Source: Thalassovita gelatinovora (GTDB lineage Bacteria > Pseudomonadota > Alphaproteobacteria > Rhodobacterales > Rhodobacteraceae). Taken from it: a stretch of 64,000 bases of DNA. Positions 5,711 through 58,864 of this stretch are shown piece by piece (the stretch's first letter is position 1; every line of letters begins with the position of its first letter). The translations under genes were made by a program, and so were the position numbers. The notes below the pieces were generated by a model, which had not been told where the DNA came from, searched no databases, and saw only the letters and a list, made by a program, of their open reading frames with translations. The stretch covers positions 501,001 to 565,000 of the forward strand of contig NZ_CYSA01000015.1 in NCBI RefSeq assembly GCF_001458355.1. Direction: 5' to 3'.

Positions 5711-7384
5711 ATGTTCGGTCTGCTCATGATGTGCGCTGCCCGAAAAGAGATGGGGCAGAGCATGCCAATAGCGCAAGAATTACCAATCGATACCGGTGCA
5801 TCAGCCAATGAAATGGCTGCGGAAATCTTTGGCGAAGGCGTCACTGTCGTCAGCGCCAGCTATTCCGGCGACAATCGGTCTTCTGGCATCTATTCCAATG
5901 GCGATAGTGTTTCGGCGGCATCCACTCCGGGGGATACCGGAGTGATCCTGTCGACTGGTCACGCATCCGATTACACCAACAGCGGCAGCAGTGGTGGCTG
6001 GGGTGGTTGGGGCGGCTGGGGCGGGAGTTCCAGCAATACCAACCAATCCAGCAACACTTCGACAAATACATCCGGCATCAATAACAATTCCGATTTCAAC
6101 GCTGCTGCGGGCACCACCACCTATGACGCGTCGTTCCTGGAAATCGACTTCATCCCCGACGGCGACACGATGACGATCCAGTTCGTGTTTTCGTCCGAAG
6201 AATACCCCGAATATGTCGACAGCCTGTATCAGGATTTCATCGGTGTCTGGGTCAATGACGAATTTGTCGAACTGGGGCTCGGCGACGGCGATATCGATCC
6301 CAACAATATCAACAGCGGCAATAATGAAAGCCTGTTCATTTCCAACCTGAACGACGAATACAATACGGAAATGGACGGTTTCACCGCCACGATGACGCTG
6401 AACATGTCGGTAAATGCGGGCGCGGTCAATTCGATCCGGATCGGGATCGCGGATGTTACGGATTCGAATTATGATTCCAACCTGCTGATCGGGGGGGGCA
6501 GCCTTCAGACGACTTTGATTGCTCAGGATGACAAGATTGAGGTGGCACCCGGCGGGACTCGAACCGTCGATGTTATGGCGAATGATGGTGGTCCAGCGAG
6601 CAGCACACTGACCCTGACCCATATCAATGGCCAAGAAGTGTCTGCGGGTTCGGTGGTCACTCTTTCTACCGGGCAGGTGCTTGAGGTGAATGCCGATGGG
6701 ACCATTACTGTTACCGCCGACAGCGACGAAGAAAGCACGATTTTCTCCTACACCGTGGAGTCGGACACCGGAATTTCCGACACGGCGTTTGCGACCATCA
6801 ACCAGGCCCCCTGCTTTGTAGCGGGCACCAAAATCCGCACTCCCAATGGCGCGGTTCCTGTGGATCAGTTGATGCCGGGCGATCTTGTCCTGACCAAGGA
6901 TAACGGTGCCCAGCCGGTCGCCTGGATCGGATCGCGTGAAGTCGAAGCCACGGGCGATTACGCGCCGGTGCGGATCGCCCGCAATACATTCGGGAACCAC
7001 CGCGAAATCTGGGTGTCGCCACTTCACCGCATTTTGGTGCGCGACAGCCTGGCCGAGCTTCTGTTCGGAACGCGCGAAGTACTGATCGCCGCCAAGGAAT
7101 TGATCAATGACCGTTCGGTTCAGCAAATCGAGGGTGGCAGCGTAACTTATGTCCACCTGATGTTCGACCAACACCAAATCATTTGGTCCGAAGGGTTGGA
7201 AACCGAAAGCTTCCTGCCGGGGCCACAGATGAATAGCAGTTTCGAACGTGAAACCATGGCCGAAATTTGCCAGTTATTTCCCGAACTCGATCCGGAAACC
7301 GGCGATGGTTACGGCCCGGCAGCGCGGCGCACGCTGCGCGGTTACGAAGCCCGGCTGATTACCCCAGCATCCGAGGTCGCCTGA
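5711..7384 (+). CDS. Choice-of-anchor-L / Hint domain protein
   Basis: A protein of up to 557 residues without an obvious signal peptide. The N-terminal half has a Gly/Ser/Asn linker (about residues 95-130, GGWGGWGGWGG) and the choice-of-anchor-L hallmark FVFSSEEYPEYVDS. A beta-rich module follows (TVDVMANDGG), then a C-terminal Hint (hedgehog/intein) domain starting at Cys368 in APCFVAGTKI, with the DQLMPGDLVLT strand. In this family the Cys is the expected nucleophile for self-processing. Such proteins in Rhodobacterales are thought to be secreted, perhaps by type I export, but no exporter is visible here. An alternative start is ATG 5762 (MPIAQELPID), which looks more like the family N-terminus; a CAGGGA site supports 5711. 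The next gene begins at the base after this stop. Confidence 0.85.
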   Translation: MFGLLMMCAARKEMGQSMPIAQELPIDTGASANEMAAEIFGEGVTVVSASYSGDNRSSGIYSNGDSVSAASTPGDTGVILSTGHASDYTNSGSSGGWGGWGGWGGSSSNTNQSSNTSTNTSGINNNSDFNAAAGTTTYDASFLEIDFIPDGDTMTIQFVFSSEEYPEYVDSLYQDFIGVWVNDEFVELGLGDGDIDPNNINSGNNESLFISNLNDEYNTEMDGFTATMTLNMSVNAGAVNSIRIGIADVTDSNYDSNLLIGGGSLQTTLIAQDDKIEVAPGGTRTVDVMANDGGPASSTLTLTHINGQEVSAGSVVTLSTGQVLEVNADGTITVTADSDEESTIFSYTVESDTGISDTAFATINQAPCFVAGTKIRTPNGAVPVDQLMPGDLVLTKDNGAQPVAWIGSREVEATGDYAPVRIARNTFGNHREIWVSPLHRILVRDSLAELLFGTREVLIAAKELINDRSVQQIEGGSVTYVHLMFDQHQIIWSEGLETESFLPGPQMNSSFERETMAEICQLFPELDPETGDGYGPAARRTLRGYEARLITPASEVA

Positions 7385-31831: not shown

Positions 31832-33994
31832 TCAATTGGACCCGAGCATTTTTGGGTTTTTCATCTGTATCAGAATTTTGGATTTGAGCGCGTTAAGTTC
31901 GATCGGTTTGGCAAGATAGTCATCCATCCCTGCTGCAAGACATTTTTCGGCCTCACCTTCCAGCGCATTTGCGGTGATCGCGATAATCGGCACAGGCTGC
32001 GCGTTCCTATTCGTCTCCTCCGCACGAATTGCAGCGACCATTTCAAAACCGTCCATGCGCGGCATATGACAATCTGTCAGGATCAGGCCAAAACCCCCGT
32101 TTTTCCATTTCGCCAACCCTTCCATCCCGTCGGAGGAAAGTTCATGCGGATAGCCCAGAATTTCGAGCTGTTTGCTGAGAACCGCCTTATTGATTTCATT
32201 GTCTTCGACCACCAGTACGCTGCAGTCTTCGGGCCGCAGATCGGACTGGACATTTTTTACGTCTGACTCAGCGATATTGAACCTTCGCGGTTCTTTGCCG
32301 CTCAGAATTGCCAGCGCGGAATAGAATTCGCTTGTCATCATCGGATAGACTTGAATCCGATAAGTGTTTTGTGAAATCAGTCCCAACCTGTCGGACCTCA
32401 CCGGACTGCAATGGATAAAACGGAGTTCGGGAGAAAGCTCTTCGAACCTTTTTTGATACCGGGTGCGCCTTTCAGCGTCCATCGGAGGGAAAATAAGGAC
32501 CGACCGATCTGCGAGTGCGGGAATTTGCTTTTCAGCCTGATCCATATCGTCAATGAATCGGTTAACAATTCTGCCGGAGCCCAATGTTTGCGCCAGACCT
32601 TCGCGAAAAATTTCGTCCTCGACACCGTAGCAAACAACCTGCAACCCGGTCAGGTCAGGAAGGCGACTGGGACCATCAGCAGGTTCCAGCGGCAGGCTGA
32701 CAATAACCTTGGTGCCTTCACCTTCCTGGCTTTCGACCCTGATACTACCCCCCATCAATTGGGTCAGGTTCTTGGAAATGACCAAGCCCAATCCGGTCCC
32801 GTCAACGCGACGATGGCTGGATTGTTCGCCCTGCATGAAAGGTTCAAACAATTTTGCCCGTACCTCGTCGTTCATCCCGACCCCGTTATCCTTGATCTTG
32901 ATGACAAGCTGTTTGTCCCGGTCATTGTGTGAATACAGAATGACCATGCCCTTTTGGCCGCTCAAGTCTTTGGCCGAGTATTTTATGGCATTGCTCAACA
33001 GATTCAGCAGAATCTGGCGCAATCGTCCTGAATCCGCCCAAATCCATTCCGGAAGTGTATGATCGATCAGTAAGCGAAGTTCGCCTCCCTTCGCCGCTGC
33101 CATAGGTTGCAGCGTTTGAGAGACACCTTCGAGGAGAGGGCGCAATTCAACTTTGGATCGTTCAACATTCAGCTTCCCGGCCTCGATCTGGCTGGCATCG
33201 AGGATGTCGTCGAGAATCCGCAACAGCGCGAAGGCGGAATTTCGGATTGTCATAACCGATCGATCTTGCTGCGGAGTCAGGTCCATCGTTTCCAGCACTT
33301 CGATCATACCAATGATACCATTCATCGGAGTGCGGATTTCATGGCTCATATTGGCCAAGAATTCGCCTTTGGACTGTGCAGCGCTTTTGGCTTGCCGCAG
33401 CGCCGAGTTTGCCTGTTTTTGGGTACGGTTGTTGAGGAAGGAAAAATAAAACATCTGGATCAGCAGCAAGTAGGCAACGGTAATGTTGATACCCCATTGA
33501 ACCGCGCCCACCTGTTCCGCGCTCAGGGCGTCATTGGGCATGCCCTTTTCAATACCCAGCACATCAAGGCTCAACGCGAGAAAGGCGACCGACGTTTGCA
33601 ACAGCACGATGGTAAAAAGCGTTCGCGGTTCCTCGGACCAGGAAAACATAAGGAACGGGAAGCTGATAAGCAGGAAAAACAAGGGCTCGATCTCGATGCC
33701 ATTGCCGAATCCTAATGCGATCGCCGGATAGGTCACAGTAAAGGCGAGGTTCCAATAAACCCGGGCCAGATAGTCCCATCGTATCCAATGCAAAATGCCG
33801 ATCGGCAGACAGGCTGCACCGGCCAACAGCACCGCATTGACGTATGCCCCTTTGCCAATCCAAGTGAAATATCCAAGCCACAGGGTCAGCAAAACCAGCG
33901 CCTGAAGCAAGGCGAATTTGCTGAGCCTGACTCTTTGATCCAGATCCGACACGATCAAAGACTTTTTTGTCTGCTGCAACGTTCCACTACCCAA
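31832..33994 (-). CDS. Hybrid sensor histidine kinase with pseudo-receiver and receiver (paralogue 1)
   Basis: Up to 720 residues. Six or so membrane helices (about 25-190) form the sensor. A linker coiled coil leads to the DHp domain with His218 in [11 protein letters not shown], then a HATPase domain ([18 protein letters not shown]). A non-canonical receiver (about 450-565) lacks the phosphoacceptor Asp. A true receiver (about 590-712) has the acidic pair EDN and Asp641 in LTDCHMPRMDG, with Lys in LAKPIE. The start is uncertain: TTG 33994 gives 720 residues, while a GTG 15 codons inside (SDLDQRVRLSKF) aligns with the start of the second kinase. No Hpt or output regulator is adjacent. Confidence 0.92.
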   Translation of the reverse strand: MGSGTLQQTKKSLIVSDLDQRVRLSKFALLQALVLLTLWLGYFTWIGKGAYVNAVLLAGAACLPIGILHWIRWDYLARVYWNLAFTVTYPAIALGFGNGIEIEPLFFLLISFPFLMFSWSEEPRTLFTIVLLQTSVAFLALSLDVLGIEKGMPNDALSAEQVGAVQWGINITVAYLLLIQMFYFSFLNNRTQKQANSALRQAKSAAQSKGEFLANMSHEIRTPMNGIIGMIEVLETMDLTPQQDRSVMTIRNSAFALLRILDDILDASQIEAGKLNVERSKVELRPLLEGVSQTLQPMAAAKGGELRLLIDHTLPEWIWADSGRLRQILLNLLSNAIKYSAKDLSGQKGMVILYSHNDRDKQLVIKIKDNGVGMNDEVRAKLFEPFMQGEQSSHRRVDGTGLGLVISKNLTQLMGGSIRVESQEGEGTKVIVSLPLEPADGPSRLPDLTGLQVVCYGVEDEIFREGLAQTLGSGRIVNRFIDDMDQAEKQIPALADRSVLIFPPMDAERRTRYQKRFEELSPELRFIHCSPVRSDRLGLISQNTYRIQVYPMMTSEFYSALAILSGKEPRRFNIAESDVKNVQSDLRPEDCSVLVVEDNEINKAVLSKQLEILGYPHELSSDGMEGLAKWKNGGFGLILTDCHMPRMDGFEMVAAIRAEETNRNAQPVPIIAITANALEGEAEKCLAAGMDDYLAKPIELNALKSKILIQMKNPKMLGSN

Positions 33995-34093
33995 AATCCA
34001 ATGACTGCTTGGTCGAATGTATATAAAACGACGGAGTTACGAACTAATTTAGCGGGCCGCCCGGTCAAGGCCTGCATGAGCAGATATGCCCAG

Positions 34094-36244
34094 CTAACGG
34101 GTTTTCTGAGAAACTCGGGACAGTTTTTCAGACAATGATTTCAATTCTATTGGTTTCGACAGATAAGCATCCATCCCGGCGTTGAGGCATTTTTCTGCTT
34201 CGCCTTCCAAGGCGTTCGCAGTAATCGCGATGATCGGAATATGGCCGGAATTACGAGCCTGTTCGGCTTTGCGGATTTCTTGGGTCAACTGGAAGCCATC
34301 CATCAACGGCATCTGGCAATCCGTCAAAATGGCATCAAACCGTTTGTTTTGCCACATTTCCAAACCTTCACGGCCATTTGAAGCGATTTCATGAGGATAG
34401 CCCAGAAGGTCCAACTGATGCGACAAGACGATCTGATTAACGGAATTGTCTTCGACCACGAGAATTTTGAAGTCCTTGCCAAGCTCCGGCACCGATCTGG
34501 CCTGTTTACCCACCCCCCGCGCCACAGACGTGTTGCCAAAGGATGTGGCCGCTACGCTATCTGCATCACCCCCCCCAAGCACGGAGATGGCCCGCAGCAG
34601 TTCGCTTGTCATCATCGGGTAGATCTGGATCAGATAGGTGCTTGGGTCCACCAGTCCGAACCGCGACGAGCGCGAAGACGAAAACTGTACGAATTTCGCC
34701 TGCGGAAGGGCCGCAGTTACAGCGGATTTCAGCCGGTGAAACAGCGCGTTGTTGGTGGCAGGCAGCAGAACGATGGGATGGTCTGAAAAGCTGTTGCCTA
34801 TTTGGTCGAGTTCGTCCGTCGTCTTGCAGCTTGCAAAACGGGCCCCGGAGGTCGAAATCAGTCGTTTCATACCAGAGGAAGCGACGTCATCCAGAATATC
34901 GAAATACAGGACATCCAGACCGCTGAGATCCGGTTTCCGGCTAGGCCCGTCTGCCGGTTCCATCGGTAGATTTACCGTCACCACTGTGCCATCGCCCGGG
35001 GTACTTTTTACGATGATGTTGCCCCCCATCAGATCGATCAGACTGCGGGTAATCACCAAACCCAGCCCGGTACCGCCGACCAGCCGGCTGGAGGATGCAT
35101 CCCCCTGAACAAAGGGGGAAAACAGTTTTTCCTGCACCTCTTTGGTTATCCCGATGCCGTTGTCTGTAAAGACGAAACGGAGGGTGTTCTTTCCCTGTTT
35201 TTCGGCCAGAAGTTTCACTTCGCCCTGATGTTTGGTCAGCGCCTTGGCGGAATATTTCACCCCATTGCTAAGCAGGTTGAGCAGAACCTGCCGCAGCCGC
35301 CCCGAATCCGACAAAATCCATTCCGGCAGATTGGGATCGATCAGCAGACGAATTCGCACGTCCATTTCATCGGCAGAGGTTTGCAGCGTTTGGGCCACGG
35401 ATTCGATCAGCGGGTGCAGTTCGACCCGGTTTTTTTCAAGATCAAGCTGGCCTGCATCGACCTTGCTTGCATCAAGAATGTCATTGATGATCCTGAGCAG
35501 GGAAAAGGCCGAATTCCGGATCGTTCCGACCACCCGGTTTTGCTGATCATCTAGATCGGTGGTTTCAAGCACCTCGATCATCCCCACCAGCCCGTTCATC
35601 GGGGTGCGGATTTCGTGACTCATATTGGCCAGAAAGTCACCCTTCGCCTGAGATGCCGCATCCGATTTCGCCAATGCGGCATCAGCCGCATCGGTGGCCT
35701 TGGCCGCCGCCCATTCGGAATAGCCGAGTTCAAGCATCACCAGAATCGAGACGGTGATTTTCAGGCCCAGCGATATGAGCTCAGGCGAAGAGGACGGACG
35801 GCTTGGAGAGGTGAACAATACCGCGCGTATACCAACCAGACTGAACATGTGCGCGGCAATAGCCATGCACATTATGGTCGCGATGAAAACCACCAGCGTT
35901 TTGCGTTCTTCTTTCCAGGAAAAAAACAGAAAAGGCAGACTCAGCAATCCAATATACAGAAGATCAACGTTGCTTGAGCCACTGAAATACAACGTTGCAA
36001 CGGCAACGATGACGATGTGAGACGCAAGATGGAAGACGCGCGCCGGATAATGCCATTTCGCCCGAAACAAGATCAATGCGATCATCTGATTGATCATCAT
36101 GATCAGGATCACTGACAATCTTCCGAAATCCTGAACATACAGGAAATACATCGACCAAGGGATCGTCATGACGAGCCAGATGATAACCGTAAACCGGCTG
36201 ATGCTGACCCGGCGATCAAGATTTTGTTTGGATCCTCGAGACAT
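34094..36244 (-). CDS. Hybrid sensor histidine kinase with pseudo-receiver and receiver (paralogue 2)
   Basis: 716 residues from the ATG at 36244 (a TTG five codons upstream is less likely). The domain order is the same as in the gene 99 bp downstream: about six membrane helices, a Ala-rich coiled coil, His210 in [11 protein letters not shown], HATPase ([18 protein letters not shown]), a degenerate receiver (about 445-560) and a receiver with Asp642 in [11 protein letters not shown] and Lys in LSKPIE. Strong similarity throughout the cytoplasmic part, and less in the membrane part, indicates a tandem duplication with diverged sensing. It probably phosphorylates an unlinked Hpt protein. Confidence 0.93.
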
Positions 36245-36562
36245 CAAAAATTGGGCCAATCAGGTTATTTTCAGGTTTGATAGTTGCAACCTTACAATCG
36301 ATAATCGCGTGGAAAGCAGGCAGAACCAAGCGGTTTCTTTACCCGTCATCAGGGCCGCTGCAAGGGCAATCTACCATTTTCGGGGCGGTCGGAGACGGTT
36401 TTAGATGGTAGGAATTGCGAATCCATCGGCCCAACTTCCGCGTAGGCTTTTCCATTATGGGGCGCTTGACAAGACCCGTTGAATTGACGATAGAGCGACC
36501 ACTTCAAGATTGCCGACAACAAGCTTTCCCGAGTTTGTAAATCGAATGCCGACAATCTCGAT
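36245..36562. other. Intergenic region, kinase promoter and tRNA upstream side
   Basis: 318 bp without a supported gene. It contains one 7-bp inverted repeat, CTACCAT (36371-36377) and ATGGTAG (36405-36411), with a 27-base GC-rich spacer. The promoters of the kinase gene (leftward) and the tRNA (rightward) should be here. Confidence 0.5.
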
Positions 36563-50792: not shown

Positions 50793-51011
50793 ATGAGATC
50801 CACTCTAAGAGCCAAGGCAATTGCGGTCTGCAATGAAAAAGTTGCCAAGAAGGGTGAGACTGTAGGCCTTTCATTCTATGCATTTTTCGCCAACAAGAAT
50901 GATGATCCAGAGTTGCTTATGGAAGCGGCTGAATGGTGGATCAAAATACATGAGCTTGATCACTTTGAGAAGGCCGTGAAAATCCGCGATATGATTAGCT
51001 CGGGCGTTTGA
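50793..51011 (+). CDS. Small hypothetical protein
   Basis: A 72-residue soluble protein starting MRSTLRAKAIAVCNEKVAKK. AGGAAGG lies about 11 bases before the ATG. The segment GLSFYAFFANKNDDPELLME and EWWIKIHELDHFEKAVKIRDMI is helical and acidic and looks like a conserved small protein rather than noise. It lies between two transposase remnants. Function unknown. Confidence 0.5.
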   Translation: MRSTLRAKAIAVCNEKVAKKGETVGLSFYAFFANKNDDPELLMEAAEWWIKIHELDHFEKAVKIRDMISSGV

Positions 51012-51163
51012 GAAACGGTGGTTTCGTCAGCACCGCTGGAACCCGCCAAACGCTGCAAGAGTGGCAGGAGGATTACAACTGGCGCAGGCCACATTCAGCT
51101 TTGGGGAACCTGACGCCGATCGAATTTTTACAGAGAAGGGTCATGAACAAGATGGCCGCTTAA
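51011..51163 (+). pseudogene. C-terminal fragment of an IS3-type transposase
   Basis: The frame reads TLQEWQEDYNWRRPHSALGN followed by LTPIEFLQRR and ends in TAA at 51161-51163. WxxDYNxxRPHSxLGxxTPxEF is the hallmark C-terminus of IS3-family OrfB integrases. No DDE-bearing upstream part remains. Confidence 0.8.
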
Positions 51164-51228: not shown

Positions 51229-51495
51229 TTATTTGACCTGCGGTGCAGCTTTGTTTTCGACCGCTGTATCCTCGGTCCAGGATATCCGCAGATCGACCCG
51301 GCAAGCGCCATCCAGTCGGTCCGCCTTGATCCGCAGGGTCATCAGCCCTTCGATGGGCAAGCTCAGTTCATTGTCGTCGTCGCTCAGGGTGATCTCACCA
51401 GCCGCGATACCCTTGGTCAGGGCGTTCAACAGCGCCTTGACAGTCTTGCGGTCCTGTAGCGATTCGTGGCGGAATTTGCCGTCAGGGAGGTTCAT
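51229..51495 (-). CDS. Amphi-Trp domain protein
   Basis: An 88-residue protein starting MNLPDGKFRHESLQDRK. It shows the alternating hydrophobic pattern and a single Trp in VDLRISWTED near residue 73 that characterise the small amphi-Trp domain (TIGR04354-like). It has no catalytic motif; a carrier, adaptor or substrate role is possible. It is the last gene of the seven-gene minus-strand operon, and its ATG overlaps the metallophosphoesterase stop (ATGA). In other genomes amphi-Trp proteins accompany HprK-related kinases and ATP-grasp proteins, which also occur here. Confidence 0.8.
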   Translation of the reverse strand: MNLPDGKFRHESLQDRKTVKALLNALTKGIAAGEITLSDDDNELSLPIEGLMTLRIKADRLDGACRVDLRISWTEDTAVENKAAPQVK

Positions 51496-52850
51496 TTGGG
51501 ACGCCTTCCGACGGCGCTGTGTTCGGGGTGGAAATGCTTCGCCTGCGGGAAATCGGCACTTAATCCGATGATATCGCCGCTGGGATAGATCAGCGTTGCC
51601 CCCATGCCAATGCCCGACAAACCTTCCAACCGGCGCGAGGCACGGTCGAGCGTCACGTCGGCTTCCAGATGCAGCAATCCGCGCTTGGCCAGCAGCCGCT
51701 GACCCTGATGGTTGTTCACATGTCCCTGCACGACCATCTTGATCCCTTTCCCATGAAGACAGCGTACCCCACCTTCGGTCAGGTGCTTGTCGGTTTCACG
51801 ATACTTGGTGCGGACAAGATTGGCCACTGGGCCGAAGTAGAAGGCAAAAGGGTCCAGCCGGGCCTCGTGGCGAAACCGGGCATTGACCGCGTCGGGGCCG
51901 CCTGCGGCCAGCAGGGTACACATCGCATCGTCCAGACCGGCATGCACAAACAGCAACGACCCGCTGCGCTGGATCACCTCCATCCGGTCATAGAACCATG
52001 CATAAGCCCCGTCCCCTGCGAGGAACAGTTTCCGGCACATCAGCGCAGAGGCATAGACCATGCGCATCGTCATCCCGGCCTTGGCGACTTCGGCATCGAA
52101 TTGGCCGCGCTTGGCCTGCAGGCGGCGCAATTCCTTGTCGATCGCGCCGGCGGACATATGTGCGGAGGCAAGATTCGGGAAGGACCGCGCCCATTTTTTC
52201 GTCGGGAATATCCTAGCCCGGCAGGCCGCTTCGTCAGGCAGATCGCGCATCAACGCGGCGGTCGGGAATCGATCCCAGACTTCGCGCAACAAGGGCACGG
52301 TTTTACGCCCCATCCGCACGAAAAGATGTTCGGTCAGCGGGCTGCGCGGCCCGGTCAGCGCCTGCACCGCCAACATGAATCGCAGATCGTGATTGCCCGC
52401 CAGCAAATGCACATCCGCGCTGCTGACAAACAGCGCGGCCAGCGCGTCGAGCATGTCGAGATTGCTTGGCCCCTTGTCGAGGCAATCACCCCCGACCACG
52501 ATCCGCGCCTGTCGCCCGAACCGGGTTAGTTCGAAATCCGCCGGGTGCGGGCCGGTGCGCTGAATGGTTCCAGCCGCAGCCAAAGAGCGCAGGAACCCTT
52601 CGGCATCGGCATGGGGATCAGACAGGAATACGATCGGGCGCCCCGGCCATTGCCAGCCGCCGTGCGCAGCGGCAGTTTTCAGGCTTTGCTGCACATCGCG
52701 CAGACTGTCATGGGTGCCGCCGCCGGAATGCCGTTCGGCCAGCGGCCAGGCCGCACAGTGCCTTGGCAGTGCCGAAAAATCACAAAACGCATCGTGAACG
52801 GGCGGCAACAGCGCGGCAGTATACTGCCGCATCATATCTTGGTCAGCCAA
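51492..52850 (-). CDS. Metallophosphoesterase
   Basis: A calcineurin-like phosphoesterase of about 452 residues from a TTG at 52850; GAGG overlapping the upstream gene's end supports it. An ATG at 52835 is the alternative. Di-metal ligands are visible: Asp78 and His80 in SDPHAD, Asp122 and Asp125 in GGDCLDKG, Asn153/His154 in GNHDLR, with His residues in FVHAGLDD and VQGHVNNHQG. Its length, with an insertion rich in Arg/Lys in the middle, exceeds the minimal phosphatase core. It hydrolyses an unknown phosphoester. Located between the histidine phosphatase and the amphi-Trp gene of the GAK-like operon. Confidence 0.88.
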   Translation of the reverse strand: MADQDMMRQYTAALLPPVHDAFCDFSALPRHCAAWPLAERHSGGGTHDSLRDVQQSLKTAAAHGGWQWPGRPIVFLSDPHADAEGFLRSLAAAGTIQRTGPHPADFELTRFGRQARIVVGGDCLDKGPSNLDMLDALAALFVSSADVHLLAGNHDLRFMLAVQALTGPRSPLTEHLFVRMGRKTVPLLREVWDRFPTAALMRDLPDEAACRARIFPTKKWARSFPNLASAHMSAGAIDKELRRLQAKRGQFDAEVAKAGMTMRMVYASALMCRKLFLAGDGAYAWFYDRMEVIQRSGSLLFVHAGLDDAMCTLLAAGGPDAVNARFRHEARLDPFAFYFGPVANLVRTKYRETDKHLTEGGVRCLHGKGIKMVVQGHVNNHQGQRLLAKRGLLHLEADVTLDRASRRLEGLSGIGMGATLIYPSGDIIGLSADFPQAKHFHPEHSAVGRRPK

Positions 52851-52861
52851 GGGTGAGGTCC

Positions 52862-53560
52862 TCAGTCCAGCGCAGTTTCCTGTCTGCGGCGGGGCTTCCA
52901 TGCGCCACCGCATTGGACCCATGTATCATTGCCTCTGTAACACAAAAGTAACGGCCGGGCGTGATACATGCTGAATCCGGCGATTTCTGCAAGGGTCAGC
53001 ACGCCCAGATCATGCGCCGCGTGCCGGAAAGCGGCGCCGTGACCGAAAACCAACGTCAACAGGGGCAGTTCCGCACTGGCCGGTTGCGCCACCAAATCGC
53101 GCAGCCATGCCGCAACCCGCGCACCGGCCATTCCAAGCGATTCCGCCCCGTGCAGCGGCAACCGGTAGTCCCTGTCTGCCTTCCAACCTGGTGGCGGGGT
53201 GTCGAACCGGGGATCGGCACGCAGCACCTCCTCGATTTCACCGATCGTCAGGTTGGCCGCGCTGCCAAGGGCACGTTCCGACAGATCCGGCGTTTGCCCG
53301 ATCGTCAGGTCATGGCCTGCGGCTGTCAAGGTTTCAGCGACGGTCTGCGCGGTCTGCCACGCGCGCAATTGCAGCGATGAATGGGCCACCGGATCAAGCC
53401 GCCAGCCGTTTTCATCCAGCAATCGGGCGATCCCGTCGCCGCAGGTGCGAGCCTGCGCAATCCCTGTTTCGGTCAATGGGTAAGGTTGCAGGGCGCTTGG
53501 CGTATCATGGCGCTGATCATAGGCGCCGTGCCGTATCAGGGCAACGATACGCCCGCTCAT
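52862..53560 (-). CDS. Histidine phosphatase family protein
   Basis: A 232-residue protein with the RHG catalytic motif at residues 10-12 (IRHGAYDQ), HSSLQLRAWQTAQ, which is the second conserved Arg region, and FGHGAAFRHAAHD with the second catalytic His. It is a cofactor-independent phosphatase or mutase fold with a phosphohistidine intermediate. The ATG overlaps the HprK-like stop. Within this operon it probably removes a phosphate that one of the kinases adds; the substrate is not known. Confidence 0.88.
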   Translation of the reverse strand: MSGRIVALIRHGAYDQRHDTPSALQPYPLTETGIAQARTCGDGIARLLDENGWRLDPVAHSSLQLRAWQTAQTVAETLTAAGHDLTIGQTPDLSERALGSAANLTIGEIEEVLRADPRFDTPPPGWKADRDYRLPLHGAESLGMAGARVAAWLRDLVAQPASAELPLLTLVFGHGAAFRHAAHDLGVLTLAEIAGFSMYHARPLLLCYRGNDTWVQCGGAWKPRRRQETALD

Positions 53561-54651
53561 CCGTCCGGTCCCAGCAACCGCTTGCCCACAGTGAAAAGCG
53601 CGTCGAAATCAATCCGACCGGATACTTCACTGACCCGGACCCCCTGCAAAGCGGCTAGATATGGTGCCGGATCGAGCGGTGCGCGGTCGGTCAGGAAATG
53701 TCCCGAAGCATCTTCATAGAACGGTCCTGGGCTTTTCATGATCGCGGCAAGCAGGTCGGGCCTGTCGTCCAAGCTCACTTCTGTCACGGTGGTCGGGGTG
53801 GTTTCGTCGCGCTGCCAGTTCAGAACCCAGAAATCGGTCAGGGGCACATCCAGCCGCACCCGACCGGGGCCATATATGTCCGGTATAATGAGGTCGTATT
53901 TTTCTTCCAGATTCCACAGCTCCCCGGCTGGCATGGCGGTCAGTTCGGCCAGACGATCGGCCGACAGTATCGGGCGCAGTCGCGGATTGTGCAGAATGGT
54001 GCCCGGATTGATCCGGGGATGCTTGGGGATACCGAGCGCTAGCGGAACCGGGTTGCCCGACCGCACCATTAGGCGGTCATTGGACACGAAGGCGGTGCCG
54101 GGAATATCCATCATTCGCAGAATCGAGGTCGACTTCCCCCCCCCCGACAACCCGGCAATGGCCAACGTCACGTCTGGCGTCGTAACGGCTGCCGCGTGAC
54201 AGATCTGCCAGCCATCGCGCAGGCAGGTGTTCAGGATCTGCGTATTGATGAAATTGATCATCTGGCTGGGATTGTCGCGCACCGGGCCGAAAGCCACCAA
54301 CGCCGCGCGCGATTGCAGGAAGGTCACGCCGGTCCGCCGCTTGTAGATCAACCGCCCATCCGCAAGGTCGTGAACGGCGTCCTTGCGCCCGATTTTGCCC
54401 GGATCACGCGCCCAGTCGATCCAATCGGGGGCCGGATCGAGCGACTGCCCGTCCAGAATATCGATTTCGATATCCGCTGGCCCGTCCCCGGTTAGGATTT
54501 CGGCGAAATACTGTGCCAATTCGGTCCGCAACGGGGTGCTGCACTTGACCCGCAGGCGCAATGCGCCGACGGCGATCAGTAGCGGCGGCGTGCCCCGCAG
54601 AGCCGACCGGTCGAGCCGGTTCAAGACATCAGAAACGGTGTGCAATGTCAT
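53557..54651 (-). CDS. HprK-related kinase (type B)
   Basis: A 364-residue protein whose ATG overlaps the ATP-grasp stop (ATGA). Its C-terminal half has the HPr-kinase-like P-loop GLSGGGKST at 167-175, preceded by CHAAAV with His152, and SNDRLMV at 190-196 with an Asp of HprK type. The HPr-binding N-domain of true HprK and its C-terminal K-motif are not seen. This is the TIGR04355-like HprK-related kinase B as I remember it. True HPr kinase activity is unlikely; a small-molecule or protein Ser/Thr-type phosphorylation is inferred. Confidence 0.85.
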   Translation of the reverse strand: MTLHTVSDVLNRLDRSALRGTPPLLIAVGALRLRVKCSTPLRTELAQYFAEILTGDGPADIEIDILDGQSLDPAPDWIDWARDPGKIGRKDAVHDLADGRLIYKRRTGVTFLQSRAALVAFGPVRDNPSQMINFINTQILNTCLRDGWQICHAAAVTTPDVTLAIAGLSGGGKSTSILRMMDIPGTAFVSNDRLMVRSGNPVPLALGIPKHPRINPGTILHNPRLRPILSADRLAELTAMPAGELWNLEEKYDLIIPDIYGPGRVRLDVPLTDFWVLNWQRDETTPTTVTEVSLDDRPDLLAAIMKSPGPFYEDASGHFLTDRAPLDPAPYLAALQGVRVSEVSGRIDFDALFTVGKRLLGPDG

Positions 54652-55529
54652 GCCGCGACCTCTTTGAGGACATGTTGAGCCAACAACGCCGCCGCATCCA
54701 GACCGCACCCGTCGCGCGCGCCGCGAAAGCCGCCGAAGGCAGAGACTTCGAAAACGATCGGGCCATCTGCGGTCATCGCCACGTCCACGGTGGTGAAGCT
54801 TAGCCCGAAAGGAGCCTGCGCCCGGCGCGCCAGATCGATCAGATCAGGGGCCGGAGCATAGGCCGCGTATTTGCCACCGCTGTGAATGGTGGTGTTCCAA
54901 GTCTCGGAGGCCGAGACCCGCGCATAGGTGCACAGATAGTCACCGTTGAGAAACACCATTCCCAGATCCTGTCCCGACAGATCCAGTTTTTCCTGAATAT
55001 ACATCACTGGGTTTTCGGCAGCGAATTCGCGGATTTGCTCGGCCGCACCTGCCCCCCGGTCGATCACGCACATGCCGCGTGCCTTGGTCGAATAGAGCGG
55101 CTTGAATACCGCGCTGCCAAAGGTTTCGACCGCCGCTTCGGCTTGGGACAGGTCTTCGGTCACGCGGGTGCGCGGCATCGGAATATCGGCCAGCCGCAGC
55201 GACACGGTGCAGGCCAACCGGTCGATCAGCCGCAGGATCGCTTCGGGGTTTGAAAAGACCCGCACACCGCGGGCTTCGGCGATGCGCAACAGTTCCAGCC
55301 GGTCCAGCACATGCGGGCTATATATTTCACTGATCTTCTTGACGATGAGCGCATCATAGCTGCACAGGTCTTCGCCGTCATGCATCAGCGACCCGGTATC
55401 GAGATCCAATACCACCCGGCCCATGTCGATCACCCGGCGAATCCCGGTATGCGCTTCGACCGCGTCGGCCAAGGTCTCGGTCGACCATTTCCCCGGAATC
55501 CCGATAACCCCGATCTTTGGTTCAGCCAC
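54648..55529 (-). CDS. ATP-grasp protein of the GAK type (RimK-like fold)
   Basis: A 293-residue protein. The start is GTG with AAGGAG 7 bases before. The central domain has LRLIDRLACTVSLRLADIPMP, FKPLYSTKARGM (ATP-binding lysines), YIQEKLDLSGQDLGMVFLNGD and the C-terminal metal-binding VFEVSAFGGFRGA. Overall it resembles RimK-type ATP-grasp carboxylate-amine ligases, which form amide bonds through acyl phosphates. It overlaps the PhoU/APH gene by 8 bases and the HprK-like gene by 4. The carboxylate substrate is unknown. Confidence 0.88.
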   Translation of the reverse strand: MAEPKIGVIGIPGKWSTETLADAVEAHTGIRRVIDMGRVVLDLDTGSLMHDGEDLCSYDALIVKKISEIYSPHVLDRLELLRIAEARGVRVFSNPEAILRLIDRLACTVSLRLADIPMPRTRVTEDLSQAEAAVETFGSAVFKPLYSTKARGMCVIDRGAGAAEQIREFAAENPVMYIQEKLDLSGQDLGMVFLNGDYLCTYARVSASETWNTTIHSGGKYAAYAPAPDLIDLARRAQAPFGLSFTTVDVAMTADGPIVFEVSAFGGFRGARDGCGLDAAALLAQHVLKEVAA

Positions 55530-57159
55530 GAAAAAGCTCCTTAATCGGCAGTTTCAGCCGGTTTTCCTTGCCCGGCGGACAGGCGATGGCGGTTTCCAGC
55601 AGGAACCGAGCGCGCACGAACATCCGCCGGGCGTGTGATTTGTCAAAAACGAACCGGGTCGAGGTGGCAAAACTGCGCGCCAACCCCAAGGCCAGACGAT
55701 ATTCGAACGTCTTGTCGCCTTGTGACCGGGCGAATTTGGTGGCCATATCATGCACGTTGGCCGCCACCTGCGCCACCCGGCGTCGGGTTTGCGCATCATG
55801 CGCCTGAAGCCGGTAGTTAGACACCATGAACACCGCCACGTCCTGCACGTAATCCATGAAACGCGACCGATGAAGGTCGATGAAATGAATTTTCATTTCG
55901 GGCGCATCGAAGATCACGTTATCGAGGTTGAAATCACCGTGAATATGAACCGAAAAAGGCGCGGACAAATCGGTTTCGCGTTCAGCGGCACGGCCCACCA
56001 GCGTTTCGAACCCGTCCAGATCAAGATCGCCAATCCGCGACGCGCCCGTTTCGAAACCGGGATGAACCCGGAAGACATCGGGCAGCCGTTTGCGCAGCTG
56101 TTTCATCGATGCCATCTCGGCCGGTTCGTCAGTCCGGGTGCGTTTCCAGATGTCGCGCAGCGTCTTGGCCAACACGGTCTGTGCCTGTTCCAAAAGGGCA
56201 TCGCTTTCGCCCAGCAGCAGCTGCTCAAAGGTCTGTCCGTGCAGATATTCGATCAACAGCGCGGCTGATTGACCGCTTTTTTCATAGGACAGGATCTTGG
56301 GGGCCAGCCCCGGATAGATCGAATCCCAGCGTTTTACACCGGCGCGTTCTTCGCGCATCTTGCCCAGTTCCCCGTCCTTGAACACCGCATCAAATGCCAT
56401 CCCCGTGGCATCCTTGGACCGAACGCCCGAAATCGTGCTGCCTGACCGGGTTTCTGCCAGCGGTTCCAATTCCAGATCACCGGTGGTGCCATCTGTATCA
56501 GACAGGATATTGCGGAGTGAAAAATAGCGCTCGAAATGAACCGATTGCCCGATGCTTGCGGATAAGATCGCTTCACTTGTCGATTGCAGCGCTTCGCCCA
56601 TCCGGTGGATTTCATTGGCCGCAAGCAGGCTGTTCGCCAGATCCTCCGTGTGTTTGGATTTGCGCATGTCATGAGTATATGTATCGAACAACTGGTCATA
56701 AAGCGCGTCCAGATCGCTTTTGGTCTGACCGATCTTGATCGCCATATCACTGTCGCGCGTATTGATCGCGGGCAAGATCGCCTTGATCCGCTTGCGCACC
56801 CGCCGGATAACCCGTGGATAGGTTTCGGGGCGCAGCAGGGCCTTTTGATTGACCTTTTCTGCATGTTCCAGACTGCGCCGCGCCATGCGCGCGATCAAGT
56901 CGAGGTTGCGTGCCACCAGCGCCGCGTTATGCAACTGAACCCGCATTTCCCGCGTGGTATTCTTTGCCGAAAGACCGCGCAGCGCCGCGCTTTGCACCCG
57001 CGACCACAGGTTATAGGAATACCCCGCCCGAAGGACGACCTTCTGCGCCTTGTCCGGATCAGGATCATCAAAATAGGCTTCAAGATTGGACAGTTGCCCG
57101 TCCAGTTCGGCACAAAGGAAGTGCAGGTTCTCGGCGACGCCGCGCGACAGGTTAGCCAT
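55522..57159 (-). CDS. PhoU-like plus aminoglycoside-phosphotransferase-like fusion protein
   Basis: A 545-residue protein. The N-terminal 210 residues are helical with repeated coiled-coil segments of PhoU-like type (ENLHFLCAELDGQLSNLEAYF, EDLANSLLAANEIHRMGEALQ). The C-terminal part is an APH-type kinase: Asp409 in HIHGDFNLDNVIF (HxD-type catalytic loop) and Asp428 in FIDLHRSRFMDYVQD (metal-binding Asp). A clear Lys/Gly loop of the N-lobe (about 262-275, GMAFDAVFKDG) is shorter than in antibiotic kinases. PhoU domains sense phosphate-related partners. The role is inferred to be phosphorylation of a small molecule or protein in the GAK-like pathway. Confidence 0.85.
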   Translation of the reverse strand: MANLSRGVAENLHFLCAELDGQLSNLEAYFDDPDPDKAQKVVLRAGYSYNLWSRVQSAALRGLSAKNTTREMRVQLHNAALVARNLDLIARMARRSLEHAEKVNQKALLRPETYPRVIRRVRKRIKAILPAINTRDSDMAIKIGQTKSDLDALYDQLFDTYTHDMRKSKHTEDLANSLLAANEIHRMGEALQSTSEAILSASIGQSVHFERYFSLRNILSDTDGTTGDLELEPLAETRSGSTISGVRSKDATGMAFDAVFKDGELGKMREERAGVKRWDSIYPGLAPKILSYEKSGQSAALLIEYLHGQTFEQLLLGESDALLEQAQTVLAKTLRDIWKRTRTDEPAEMASMKQLRKRLPDVFRVHPGFETGASRIGDLDLDGFETLVGRAAERETDLSAPFSVHIHGDFNLDNVIFDAPEMKIHFIDLHRSRFMDYVQDVAVFMVSNYRLQAHDAQTRRRVAQVAANVHDMATKFARSQGDKTFEYRLALGLARSFATSTRFVFDKSHARRMFVRARFLLETAIACPPGKENRLKLPIKELFRG

Positions 57160-57613
57160 CGTACACCCCTAGGTAAACAGGGGCGGCAGCGTTTTCCAGC
57201 ACCGGCCCATAAGCGGGGTGCAGCCGCTTTGCGGCTTCACGCAGGGGGACCCATGCGGTTGCGATCTGCGCCGGATCTGGGTGCGAACCAAGCCGAGGGA
57301 CATAATCCTCGGGCACGGTGCAGGCGAAGAAAATATCGATCTGGTGACGGCGGCCTTCGGTTTTTCTGCGGAAAACTTCGGCCACGTGCAGCAGGCGACC
57401 GACCTTGACGATCGCCCCGATCTCCTCGGCGCATTCGCGGATCACGCATTGGACCAATGTTTCACCCGGTTCCTGCTTGCCTCCTGGCAAAGTCAGGTAA
57501 TCATCGCGCCCCGGTTTGGATTTCACCTGCACAAGCAACTCCTCGTTCCGAACGATCACTGCCCGCCCGCAGGGACGTAGTTGTGCAAGAAATCCATTCG
57601 ATGTCTTGTCCAT
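57152..57613 (-). CDS. NUDIX hydrolase
   Basis: A 153-residue NUDIX protein. The box is at 44-66 (GGKQEPGETLVQCVIRECAE then EIG), matching GX5EX7REUXEEXGU. It cleaves X-linked nucleoside diphosphates. It is the first gene of the minus-strand GAK-like operon, overlapping the next by 8 bases, and is divergent from the CofD-like gene (63-bp shared promoter region). A role in nucleotide-sugar or dinucleotide turnover is possible. Confidence 0.9.
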   Translation of the reverse strand: MDKTSNGFLAQLRPCGRAVIVRNEELLVQVKSKPGRDDYLTLPGGKQEPGETLVQCVIRECAEEIGAIVKVGRLLHVAEVFRRKTEGRRHQIDIFFACTVPEDYVPRLGSHPDPAQIATAWVPLREAAKRLHPAYGPVLENAAAPVYLGVYDG

Positions 57614-57676
57614 GGGTGGTAAGGAGCCTTTGAGACAGAATTGTATCAGGCGGGCGATTTTTCAGGAGGCCCAAGG

Positions 57677-58864
57677 ATGTCAGACCTTCAGATCACCCGC
57701 AACGTGGTATTTCCTGATACATTGCGCGTAGCGCGGGCCCGAAGCCTGCCCAATCTCGGGCCCCGGATACTGTTTTTTTCGGGTGGCAGCGCGTTGAACG
57801 AAATCGCGCGGGCGCTCAAGCTCTACACCCATAATTCGATCCATCTCATCACCACATTTGACAGCGGCGGCAGTTCGCAGGTTTTGCGAGAAGCCTTACA
57901 AATGCCCGCAGTGGGCGATCTTCGCAGCCGCCTGATGGCGCTGGCGGACGAATCCATTCTGGGTCAGCCCGATATCTTCCGCCTGTTTTCCTATCGGTTT
58001 CCTAAAACCGCGACATCGGCAGACCTGTCAGCGGAATATGACGACCTGATGGAGGGTCGTCACAGACTGATGAAAGCAATTTCACAACCGATGCGCAGCC
58101 TGATCCTGACGCAGATCAAGGTCTTCGAAGCCGAGCGCCCGGCGGATTTCGATTTCGCCGGGGCCAGCGTTGGCAACCTGATCCTGGCCGGCGGGTACCT
58201 GGCCAATGACCGTGCCTTGGAACCTGTCTTGTTCCTGATGTCCAAGATGGTGGCTGTACAGGGGACCGTGCGGGCGATTGTAGACCGGAATCTCGATATC
58301 GGGGCCAAGTTGAGCGACGGTACCAATGTTGCGACCCAACGGCTGATGACCGGAAAGGAAGTCGCACGGATCAAAGCTCCGATCCGCGACCTGTACCTGT
58401 CAGAGGAAGGTGCACGATTGTCGCGCGACGAAGTTTCCCTGCCCAAGCGCAACCGCAAACTAATCGGGCATGCCGACTTGATCTGCTACTCTCCCGGCAG
58501 TCTGTATACCAGCGTGATCGCGAACCTGCTGCCGAAATACACCGGCCGGTCGGTCGCCCGGCGTCAGGTGCCCAAGGTCTATCTGCCCAGCCTTGGCACC
58601 GATCCAGAATGCCCCGGCATGACCTTGACCGATCAAGTGGCGGCCATTCTTGCCACCTTGCGGGCGGATGCAGGGGCGGAATGTCCGGTGGCGGACCTGA
58701 TGTCTGTCGTGCTGTGCGATACTGACAGTTTCGACAACGACGAAGCCGCCAGACTCGAAACACGCTTCGGTATACCCCTGATCCCCTTGCCGTTGAAGCA
58801 GGACGCCGACCCACTGCGCTACGATCCGGACAGGGTTTGCGAAGCCCTGTTGTCGCTGTCATGA
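57677..58864 (+). CDS. CofD-like protein of the GAK system
   Basis: A 395-residue CofD/YvcK-superfamily protein from the ATG at 57677, with AGGAGG 7 bases upstream. Nucleotide or sugar-nucleotide binding motifs are LFFSGGSALNE (about 32-42), TTFDSGGSSQVLRE and ICYSPGSLYTSV near residue 275. CofD proper moves phospholactate in F420 synthesis, and YvcK binds UDP-sugars; no other F420 genes are visible. It is longer than YvcK. Divergent from, and likely co-regulated with, the seven-gene operon. Confidence 0.85.
   Translation: MSDLQITRNVVFPDTLRVARARSLPNLGPRILFFSGGSALNEIARALKLYTHNSIHLITTFDSGGSSQVLREALQMPAVGDLRSRLMALADESILGQPDIFRLFSYRFPKTATSADLSAEYDDLMEGRHRLMKAISQPMRSLILTQIKVFEAERPADFDFAGASVGNLILAGGYLANDRALEPVLFLMSKMVAVQGTVRAIVDRNLDIGAKLSDGTNVATQRLMTGKEVARIKAPIRDLYLSEEGARLSRDEVSLPKRNRKLIGHADLICYSPGSLYTSVIANLLPKYTGRSVARRQVPKVYLPSLGTDPECPGMTLTDQVAAILATLRADAGAECPVADLMSVVLCDTDSFDNDEAARLETRFGIPLIPLPLKQDADPLRYDPDRVCEALLSLS

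Follow-up and report, generated by a model that had tools for sequence, protein, structure and literature searches.

The GAK locus of Thalassovita gelatinovora

What is the function of GAK, a system that is named in protein-family models and for which no printed function was found? A locus of this kind lies at positions 51229-58864 of a 64,000-nucleotide stretch of the Thalassovita gelatinovora contig NZ_CYSA01000015.1 (hereafter the window, meaning the whole stretch analyzed). Based on the relatives of this locus, we suggest that GAK is probably linked to phosphate, and we lean slightly towards the view that the system as a whole is a phosphate-homeostasis module, in which phosphate-responsive phosphoryl transfer would tune the storage of phosphate or polyphosphate.

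The original prediction, made from the letters of the window, presented the locus as the best candidate in the window for an undescribed system. As far as function is concerned this stands: in the open full-text literature, searched by GAK names and by context, we recognized no paper that deals with GAK (subscription papers and preprints lay outside the scope of the search), which agrees with the claim that no function has been described. Papers matching the name mostly deal with the human kinase GAK, and an Enterococcus proteome paper was matched for the CofD-like protein. The gene set itself, however, is already named in NCBIfam, therefore GAK should be called unstudied rather than undescribed.

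All eight predicted open reading frames were located in their predicted arrangement, i.e. seven densely packed on the minus strand and the CofD-like gene divergent on the plus strand. The four GAK models (TIGR04354 to TIGR04357) all pass their curated cut-offs within this one locus, which bears out the family assignment of the original prediction, and plasmid records carry the same names. This complete GAK operon is composed as follows:

51229..51495, minus strand: amphi-Trp protein, 88 amino acids (TIGR04354, 60.9 bits; cut-off 31)
51492..52922, minus strand: metallophosphoesterase, calcineurin-like and weakly ApaH-like, start codon uncertain (PF00149, 25.2 bits; cut-off 21.5)
52862..53560, minus strand: histidine phosphatase, branch 1 (PF00300, His_Phos_1, 70.7 bits)
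53557..54708, minus strand: HprK-related kinase B (HprK-B), HprK/PEPCK fold (TIGR04355, 320.6 bits; cut-off 200)
54648..55529, minus strand: GAK ATP-grasp enzyme, RimK-related, with altered motifs (TIGR04356, 454 bits; cut-off 300)
55522..57159, minus strand: PhoU-APH fusion, a nearly full-length PhoU domain joined to an APH-like kinase (PF01895 and PF01636)
57152..57613, minus strand: NUDIX hydrolase, accessory (PF00293, 69.1 bits)
57614..57676, no strand: divergent intergenic region of 63 bases (best TGTCA repeat of period 11 with 3 mismatches in 10)
57677..58864, plus strand: GAK CofD-like protein (CofD-GAK), YvcK-like, accessory (TIGR04357, 469.5 bits; cut-off 340)

On the minus strand each frame overlaps the next by 4 to 61 bases, as expected of a single transcription unit. 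In the list of open reading frames the CofD-like one opens with TTG at 57641; the alternative ATG at 57677, preceded by AGGAGG (57664-57669), is the likelier start. The locus is not a chance arrangement, as the same gene order recurs in its relatives.

Gene content and distribution of GAK loci

The relatives were collected from two sources. In a scan of 84,980 species, each represented by one genome, 496 stretches were found to encode a relative of the ATP-grasp enzyme. Together with 13 loci from genomes and the window, the best 80 of these 496 form a set of 94 loci, i.e. 93 relatives of the window; owing to this selection near relatives are over-represented in it, and some of the contigs are short. 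According to their titles, the 80 (L030-L109) come mostly from marine Alpha- and Gammaproteobacteria or, grouped by habitat, mostly from marine, saline or symbiont bacteria. Two of them, titled Halobacteria archaeon (L075) and Enemella evansiae (L060), carry GAK loci of proteobacterial type and are probably mis-binned or contaminated.

The usual gene order is PhoU-APH, ATP-grasp, HprK-B, often a SixA-NUDIX protein, histidine phosphatase, metallophosphoesterase and amphi-Trp, with NUDIX upstream of the operon and a divergent CofD-like gene in many relatives. As greedy longest-frame calling gave false antisense genes in GC-rich loci, the gene census was redone with six-frame profiles in the 61 loci that span 18 kb or more, which include the window and were selected by the ATP-grasp gene; the profiles were built from the same loci in which they were counted. 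PhoU-APH, ATP-grasp, HprK-B and amphi-Trp were each present in 61/61 loci, the metallophosphoesterase in 57 and the histidine phosphatase in 56, while the CofD-like gene (43), NUDIX (39) and SixA-NUDIX (22) were less constant. The system therefore has a four-gene core, comprising the PhoU-kinase, the ATP-grasp enzyme, the HprK-like kinase and amphi-Trp, which is usually joined by the two phosphatases. The CofD-like gene is accessory, and the PhoU-kinase belongs to the core.

The SixA-NUDIX protein, a SixA-like histidine phosphatase with NUDIX as its C-terminal domain, was detected by profile in 42 of the 94 loci (e.g. L021:7466-8440). Fusions between domains of the locus were also considered as an additional line of evidence and dropped, the sole frame matching several families being that of L038, where amphi-Trp is joined to a piece matching the metallophosphoesterase.

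Co-occurrence was examined in one panel of 398 Pseudomonadota genomes, the same for ATP-grasp, HprK-B, PhoU-APH and CofD-GAK. The ATP-grasp enzyme was found in 14 genomes from eight families (E<=1e-60; 13 exceed the cut-off) and HprK-B in 16 (E<=1e-30; 14 above the cut-off), among them every one of the 14 ATP-grasp genomes; in the two extra genomes, G140 and G184 (87 and 84% complete), the match lies close to a contig start. The PhoU-APH profile matched 13 genomes (E<=1e-30), all inside the ATP-grasp set, and the one ATP-grasp genome that it did not match is G033, where the ATP-grasp match is partial and HprK-B was matched at the edge of a contig. CofD-GAK was present in six genomes (E<=1e-60), five of which belong to the 14. 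The only genome of the same genus in the panel (G135) gave no ATP-grasp, HprK-B, PhoU-APH or CofD-GAK match. The GAK genes thus co-occur in several families and in more than one class, i.e. beyond close relatives. As a system GAK is accessory, and its core is wider than its name says, since PhoU-APH, which is matched by no GAK model, occurs only within the ATP-grasp genomes. The histidine phosphatase and the metallophosphoesterase, which are core or near-core like PhoU-APH, likewise differ from the named set in being matched by no GAK model.

The amphi-Trp gene was detected in 19 of 289 sampled genomes. As eight of these (including G184, which has HprK-B) fall outside the ATP-grasp set, amphi-Trp also occurs apart from GAK. 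In two of seven neighbourhoods of such lone genes, amphi-Trp directly follows a gene that by eye resembles gpsA, for glycerol-3-phosphate dehydrogenase (L143:9929-11330 and L146:6425-7946); no common theme was seen in the other five.

The system is also found on plasmids. Among 72,556 plasmid records, five encode the ATP-grasp enzyme (E<=1e-40), three from Tritonibacter and one each from Qingshengfaniella and Pseudooceanicola. Of the three annotated regions, one contains the full set of eight genes, arranged as in the window, one is devoid of NUDIX, and in the third both NUDIX and the CofD-like gene are absent from the stretch shown. The operons L158, L159 and L160 reside on Rhodobacterales plasmids of 111 to 449 kb, and that of the Qingshengfaniella alkalisoli plasmid has iolG and further Gfo/Idh/MocA genes in its vicinity.

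Phosphate-related genes in the vicinity of GAK

We surveyed stretches of up to about 10 kb on either side of the 93 relatives for recurrent neighbours, with one representative per family checked against Pfam. CHAD proteins were found beside 12 loci, ParA-like ATPases beside 12, Na/Pi cotransporters beside 9, PPK1 beside 5, PhoU beside 4 and CYTH beside 3, and 21 of the 93 relatives carry one or more of the five families CHAD, Na/Pi cotransporter, PPK1, PhoU and CYTH.

For three of the families the counts were compared with an expectation from copy numbers in 26 GAK genomes (109 Mb in total, summed by hand from rounded values), which contain 21 CHAD, 23 PPK1 and 22 Na/Pi cotransporter genes, the last counted by hand. 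In 1.63 Mb of loci, CHAD was observed beside 12 loci against 0.31 expected, Na/Pi cotransporters beside 9 against 0.33 and PPK1 beside 5 against 0.34, with a CHAD background that is raised because 8 of the 26 hand-picked background genomes carry CHAD near GAK. The excess persisted when the loci were collapsed at 80% identity into 43 clusters (CHAD 6 vs 0.14, Na/Pi 4 vs 0.15, PPK1 3 vs 0.16), and at 75% identity the 23 clusters retained 5, 2 and 2, respectively.

CHAD domains have been described as binding polyphosphate and localizing to polyphosphate granules (PMC6537752). All but one of the 12 CHAD loci have the CHAD gene and the ParA-like ATPase gene next to each other and in the same direction (L022, L024, L032, L058, L060, L064, L067, L075, L087, L100 and L107). 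Such a pairing could suit the positioning of polyphosphate granules; the matching passages of a paper on granule spacing by AlgP (PMC9239181) make no mention of ParA.

CofD-GAK genes that stand alone have neighbourhoods which point the same way. In G006 (L140:9925-13695), where ATP-grasp, HprK-B and PhoU-APH all gave no match, an Na/Pi cotransporter lies 0.6 kb away (244.5 bits; cut-off 210.1). In two genomes of one genus, G142 (L141:6416-14400) and G158 (L139:1811-10441), ugp genes occur within about 7 kb: UgpB, UgpA and UgpC exceed their cut-offs in the former, with a phosphodiesterase below its own (218.7 vs 264), and UgpB does so in the latter. UgpB-like genes, each scoring under the model cut-off, were also noted near the GAK operon of L056 and, in fragmentary form, near those of L051 and L032.

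Pho box-like repeats at the operon start

A second signal was sought in operon-start segments of up to 360 bases. These were available for 90 of the 94 loci, including the window; the other four were dropped as PhoU-APH was unmatched or the segment was shorter than 250 bases. Direct TGTCA repeats with a period of 11, which we take to be the consensus and spacing of the Pho box, were found in 16/90 segments when up to one mismatch was allowed, and in 5 of them the repeat is exact. Other periods from 7 to 16 gave 1-6 segments with at most one mismatch and at most 1 exact repeat. Inside the PhoU-APH gene, which served as an intragenic control, the numbers were 2/90 and 0. Permuted half-sites averaged 1.58 (at most one mismatch) and 0.12 (exact), the highest count being 9, for the shifted word GTCAT. 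Upstream of other genes of the same loci the repeat was seen in 9 of 479 cases with at most one mismatch, and in 2 exactly; these background genes are greedy longest-frame calls, some of which are false and not all of which are first in an operon.

After collapse at 80% identity, the repeat was retained in 14/42 clusters, where 24 other periods averaged 3.5 clusters and reached 8 at most, and at 75% in 7/22 (mean 2.6, maximum 5). The suggestion of a storage pathway in the original prediction is in keeping with both the polyphosphate and phosphate neighbours and the Pho box-like repeats, each of which is present in some relatives.

Weighing the phosphate link

Several observations weigh against the phosphate-homeostasis module proposed above. 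None of the five neighbour families was found in the stretch examined in 72 of the 93 relatives, and in 74 of the 90 upstream regions no repeat was seen at one mismatch. The window itself shows neither signal: its GAK locus has no CHAD, PPK1 or Na/Pi neighbour (in this genome other contigs carry the CHAD and Na/Pi genes, and PPK1 is on the same contig at a distance of about 410 kb), and no clear Pho box is present in its intergenic region, where the best repeat differs at 3 positions in 10. Both contrasts weaken when the loci are collapsed at 70% identity, which leaves CHAD in 3, Na/Pi in 1 and PPK1 in 2 of 10 clusters, and the repeat in 5/11 (mean 1.8, maximum 4). At one mismatch the repeat occurs upstream of 0/3 lone CofD-GAK genes and 0/3 plasmid GAK copies. 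The intended positive control, i.e. the region upstream of ugpB, contained it in 1/8 cases, no better than some other periods, and TIGR00975 (pstS) matched in 1/24 genomes, hence no usable pstS control for the Pho box was obtained. Moreover, the neighbour families and the motif were chosen after inspection, which makes the tests post hoc.

These observations lend weight to the possibility that the phosphate neighbours and repeats are incidental and that GAK has an unrelated function, as both signals are absent from most relatives and from the window, the families and the motif were selected by inspection and the controls are weak. On the other hand, the signals are of independent kinds (the PhoU domain of a core protein, neighbours from several families and repeats that are specific in their spacing) and survive the collapse of lineages at 80% identity. 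We consider incidental association rather unlikely.

The proteins of the GAK locus

The proteins of the locus were compared with known structures and families. Conservation of residues was counted among aligned sequences scoring more than 100 bits, and the catalytic roles of the conserved residues are those which we presume from general knowledge of the families.

In the PhoU-APH fusion, positions 7-225 align to PhoU structures, as a nearly full-length PhoU, and positions 289-446 to APH structures; fusion to an APH-like kinase distinguishes the GAK version from PhoU itself. Its presumed catalytic positions are kept in 92/92 aligned sequences. Drug resistance was considered as a role of the APH domain and rejected, the APH(3') equivalog model scoring 31.7 bits against a cut-off of 205.

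HprK-B retains H171, the P-loop and D211 in 89/89 aligned sequences. In its predicted model (mean predicted local distance difference test score, pLDDT, 91.0), PEPCK is the best fold match and HprK/P the next, so that the protein combines a P-loop with a predicted HprK/PEPCK fold, with template modelling (TM) scores over the query of 0.26 to 0.49 among the 50 matches listed. By sequence it differs from both enzymes, as only five chance-like PDB matches were obtained at E<=0.1, four of them ABC transporters at the P-loop and one a superoxide dismutase.

These features are relevant to an explanation in which amphi-Trp is a phosphocarrier or switch similar to HPr, phosphorylated by HprK-B, reset by the phosphatases and further modified by the ATP-grasp enzyme, with the link to phosphate as one output among others. 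It is partly compatible with the phosphate-homeostasis reading, and accords with the presence of amphi-Trp in 61/61 loci, usually as the last gene of the operon, and with the retention in HprK-B of the histidine before the P-loop and of the aspartate, which we take to be catalytic in HprK. However, HprK-B as a whole is closer to PEPCK than to HprK/P, and Ser12 of amphi-Trp is nearly but not fully invariant, being replaced by alanine in one relative (L017). The amphi-Trp model (pLDDT 87.2), predicted as one helix and four strands, matched no PDB fold at E<=0.001, and HPr was absent among the 50 of 132 matches listed; the fold search, which is a weak test, gave no support to an HPr fold. We regard an HPr-like role as unlikely.

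The GAK ATP-grasp enzyme is homologous to the RimK, LysX and MptN ligases, and the structures of RimK and LysX are the best PDB matches of its profile. Nevertheless, it departs from aligned RimK in the motifs, with TTIHSGG in the window for SNLHRGG and EVS for EVN, and a role as amide-bond ligase, suggested by the fold, is not supported in that form, as the RimK/LysX motif residues are absent. The substitutions are not peculiar to the window, as T214 and S263 are found in 94/94 aligned sequences and S217 in 87/94, and the basic residues K64, K65, R77, R104, K143, K149, R151 and R204 are each kept in 93 or 94 of 94. Judged from the sequence, the changed motifs perhaps reflect an altered reaction, possibly with an anionic substrate.

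A CofD-like transferase fold had been proposed for CofD-GAK. A CofD-type transferase role is not supported in that form, since the PDB matches of the protein (E<=0.01) are UPF0052/YvcK-type proteins of the CofD superfamily: five chains with E-values of 2e-33 to 4e-19, none of them named CofD. Two are named UPF0052, and the other three presumably belong to the same family. Among NCBIfam models it matched those of GAK and YvcK only, the YvcK model TIGR01826 ranking second, below its cut-off (113 vs 196 bits), which sets CofD-GAK apart from YvcK. The Pfam CofD domain scores 136.8 bits and spans the whole superfamily.

A cofactor or small-molecule pathway resembling assembly of the F420 tail could be envisaged on these grounds: the CofD-like protein would transfer a phosphorylated hydroxy acid produced by a kinase, and the ATP-grasp enzyme would add amino acids. 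The family names and distant homologies speak for it, namely the CofD domain and the scores of the ATP-grasp enzyme with MptN (128.8 bits) and the RimK family (91.7 bits), both below cut-off. The RimK/LysX motif residues are lacking, however, phosphate-storage neighbours would not be expected, CofD-GAK was not found in 18/61 loci and its structural matches include no protein named CofD. As CofD-GAK is accessory and YvcK-like, cofactor assembly of this type was rejected as a candidate, and we consider it very improbable.

Among the hydrolases, the histidine phosphatase keeps R10, H11, R66, E95 and H174 in 80/80 aligned sequences, and the metallophosphoesterase, whose top PDB match is ApaH (E 0.0012), keeps its metal-site positions in 75-79 of 79. 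One could suppose that the system removes phosphoanhydride nucleotides, e.g. diadenosine polyphosphates, with the kinases merely regulating this clean-up. Such a role would fit the weak ApaH-likeness of the metallophosphoesterase, the NUDIX and SixA-NUDIX proteins and the genes near four relatives that were judged by eye to be apaH. Yet the constant core consists of kinases and the ATP-grasp enzyme rather than hydrolases, and each of the two most frequent hydrolases is absent from a few loci (4 and 5 of 61). We consider such a clean-up role very improbable.

Other features of the window

Just downstream of the operon, at 51008-51163, there is a short frame which by eye resembles, as we presume, the end of an IS3-type transposase. 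Elsewhere, the window encodes two adjoining hybrid histidine kinases with receiver domains (31832-36259; 720 and 721 amino acids) and a 557-amino-acid protein with a Big_9 and a Hint_2 domain (5711-7384).

Proposed mechanism and significance

How could a phosphate-homeostasis module be built from these proteins? We hypothesize that, during phosphate stress, the fusion kinase would read phosphate status through its PhoU domain. The APH, HprK-like and ATP-grasp enzymes would then spend ATP on a phosphate-rich product, formed on a small metabolite or on amphi-Trp, which the histidine phosphatase, the metallophosphoesterase and NUDIX would dismantle. The level of this product would set the storage of phosphate or polyphosphate, and the CofD/YvcK-like protein might act as an optional regulator. 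The detailed chemistry of this scheme is tentative, and its particulars are doubtful.

In eukaryotes, the inositol pyrophosphate circuit, which controls polyphosphate, relies on kinases, PPIP5K and NUDIX enzymes. It shares with GAK the kinds of components, i.e. kinases, an ATP-grasp enzyme, a histidine phosphatase, NUDIX and genes for phosphate and polyphosphate, a likeness in enzyme kinds and not in homology: PPIP5K was absent among the PDB profile matches of the ATP-grasp enzyme at E<=0.01. By analogy, GAK might be a convergent bacterial counterpart of that circuit, in which the three ATP-using enzymes would produce either a soluble messenger rich in phosphoryl groups or amphi-Trp as a polyphosphorylated carrier, the histidine phosphatase, NUDIX and the metallophosphoesterase would erase it, and polyphosphate storage would be set through the CHAD, PPK1 and Na/Pi partners. 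We offer this as a speculation that is quite improbable as it stands.

What is new here is the functional lead from the relatives, given by their neighbouring genes and upstream repeats, and the core of GAK, which now includes a PhoU-fused kinase. Control of phosphate or polyphosphate provides a concrete and directly testable hypothesis for GAK. If it is true, the system would add to marine bacteria an accessory, sometimes plasmid-borne module of phosphate control.

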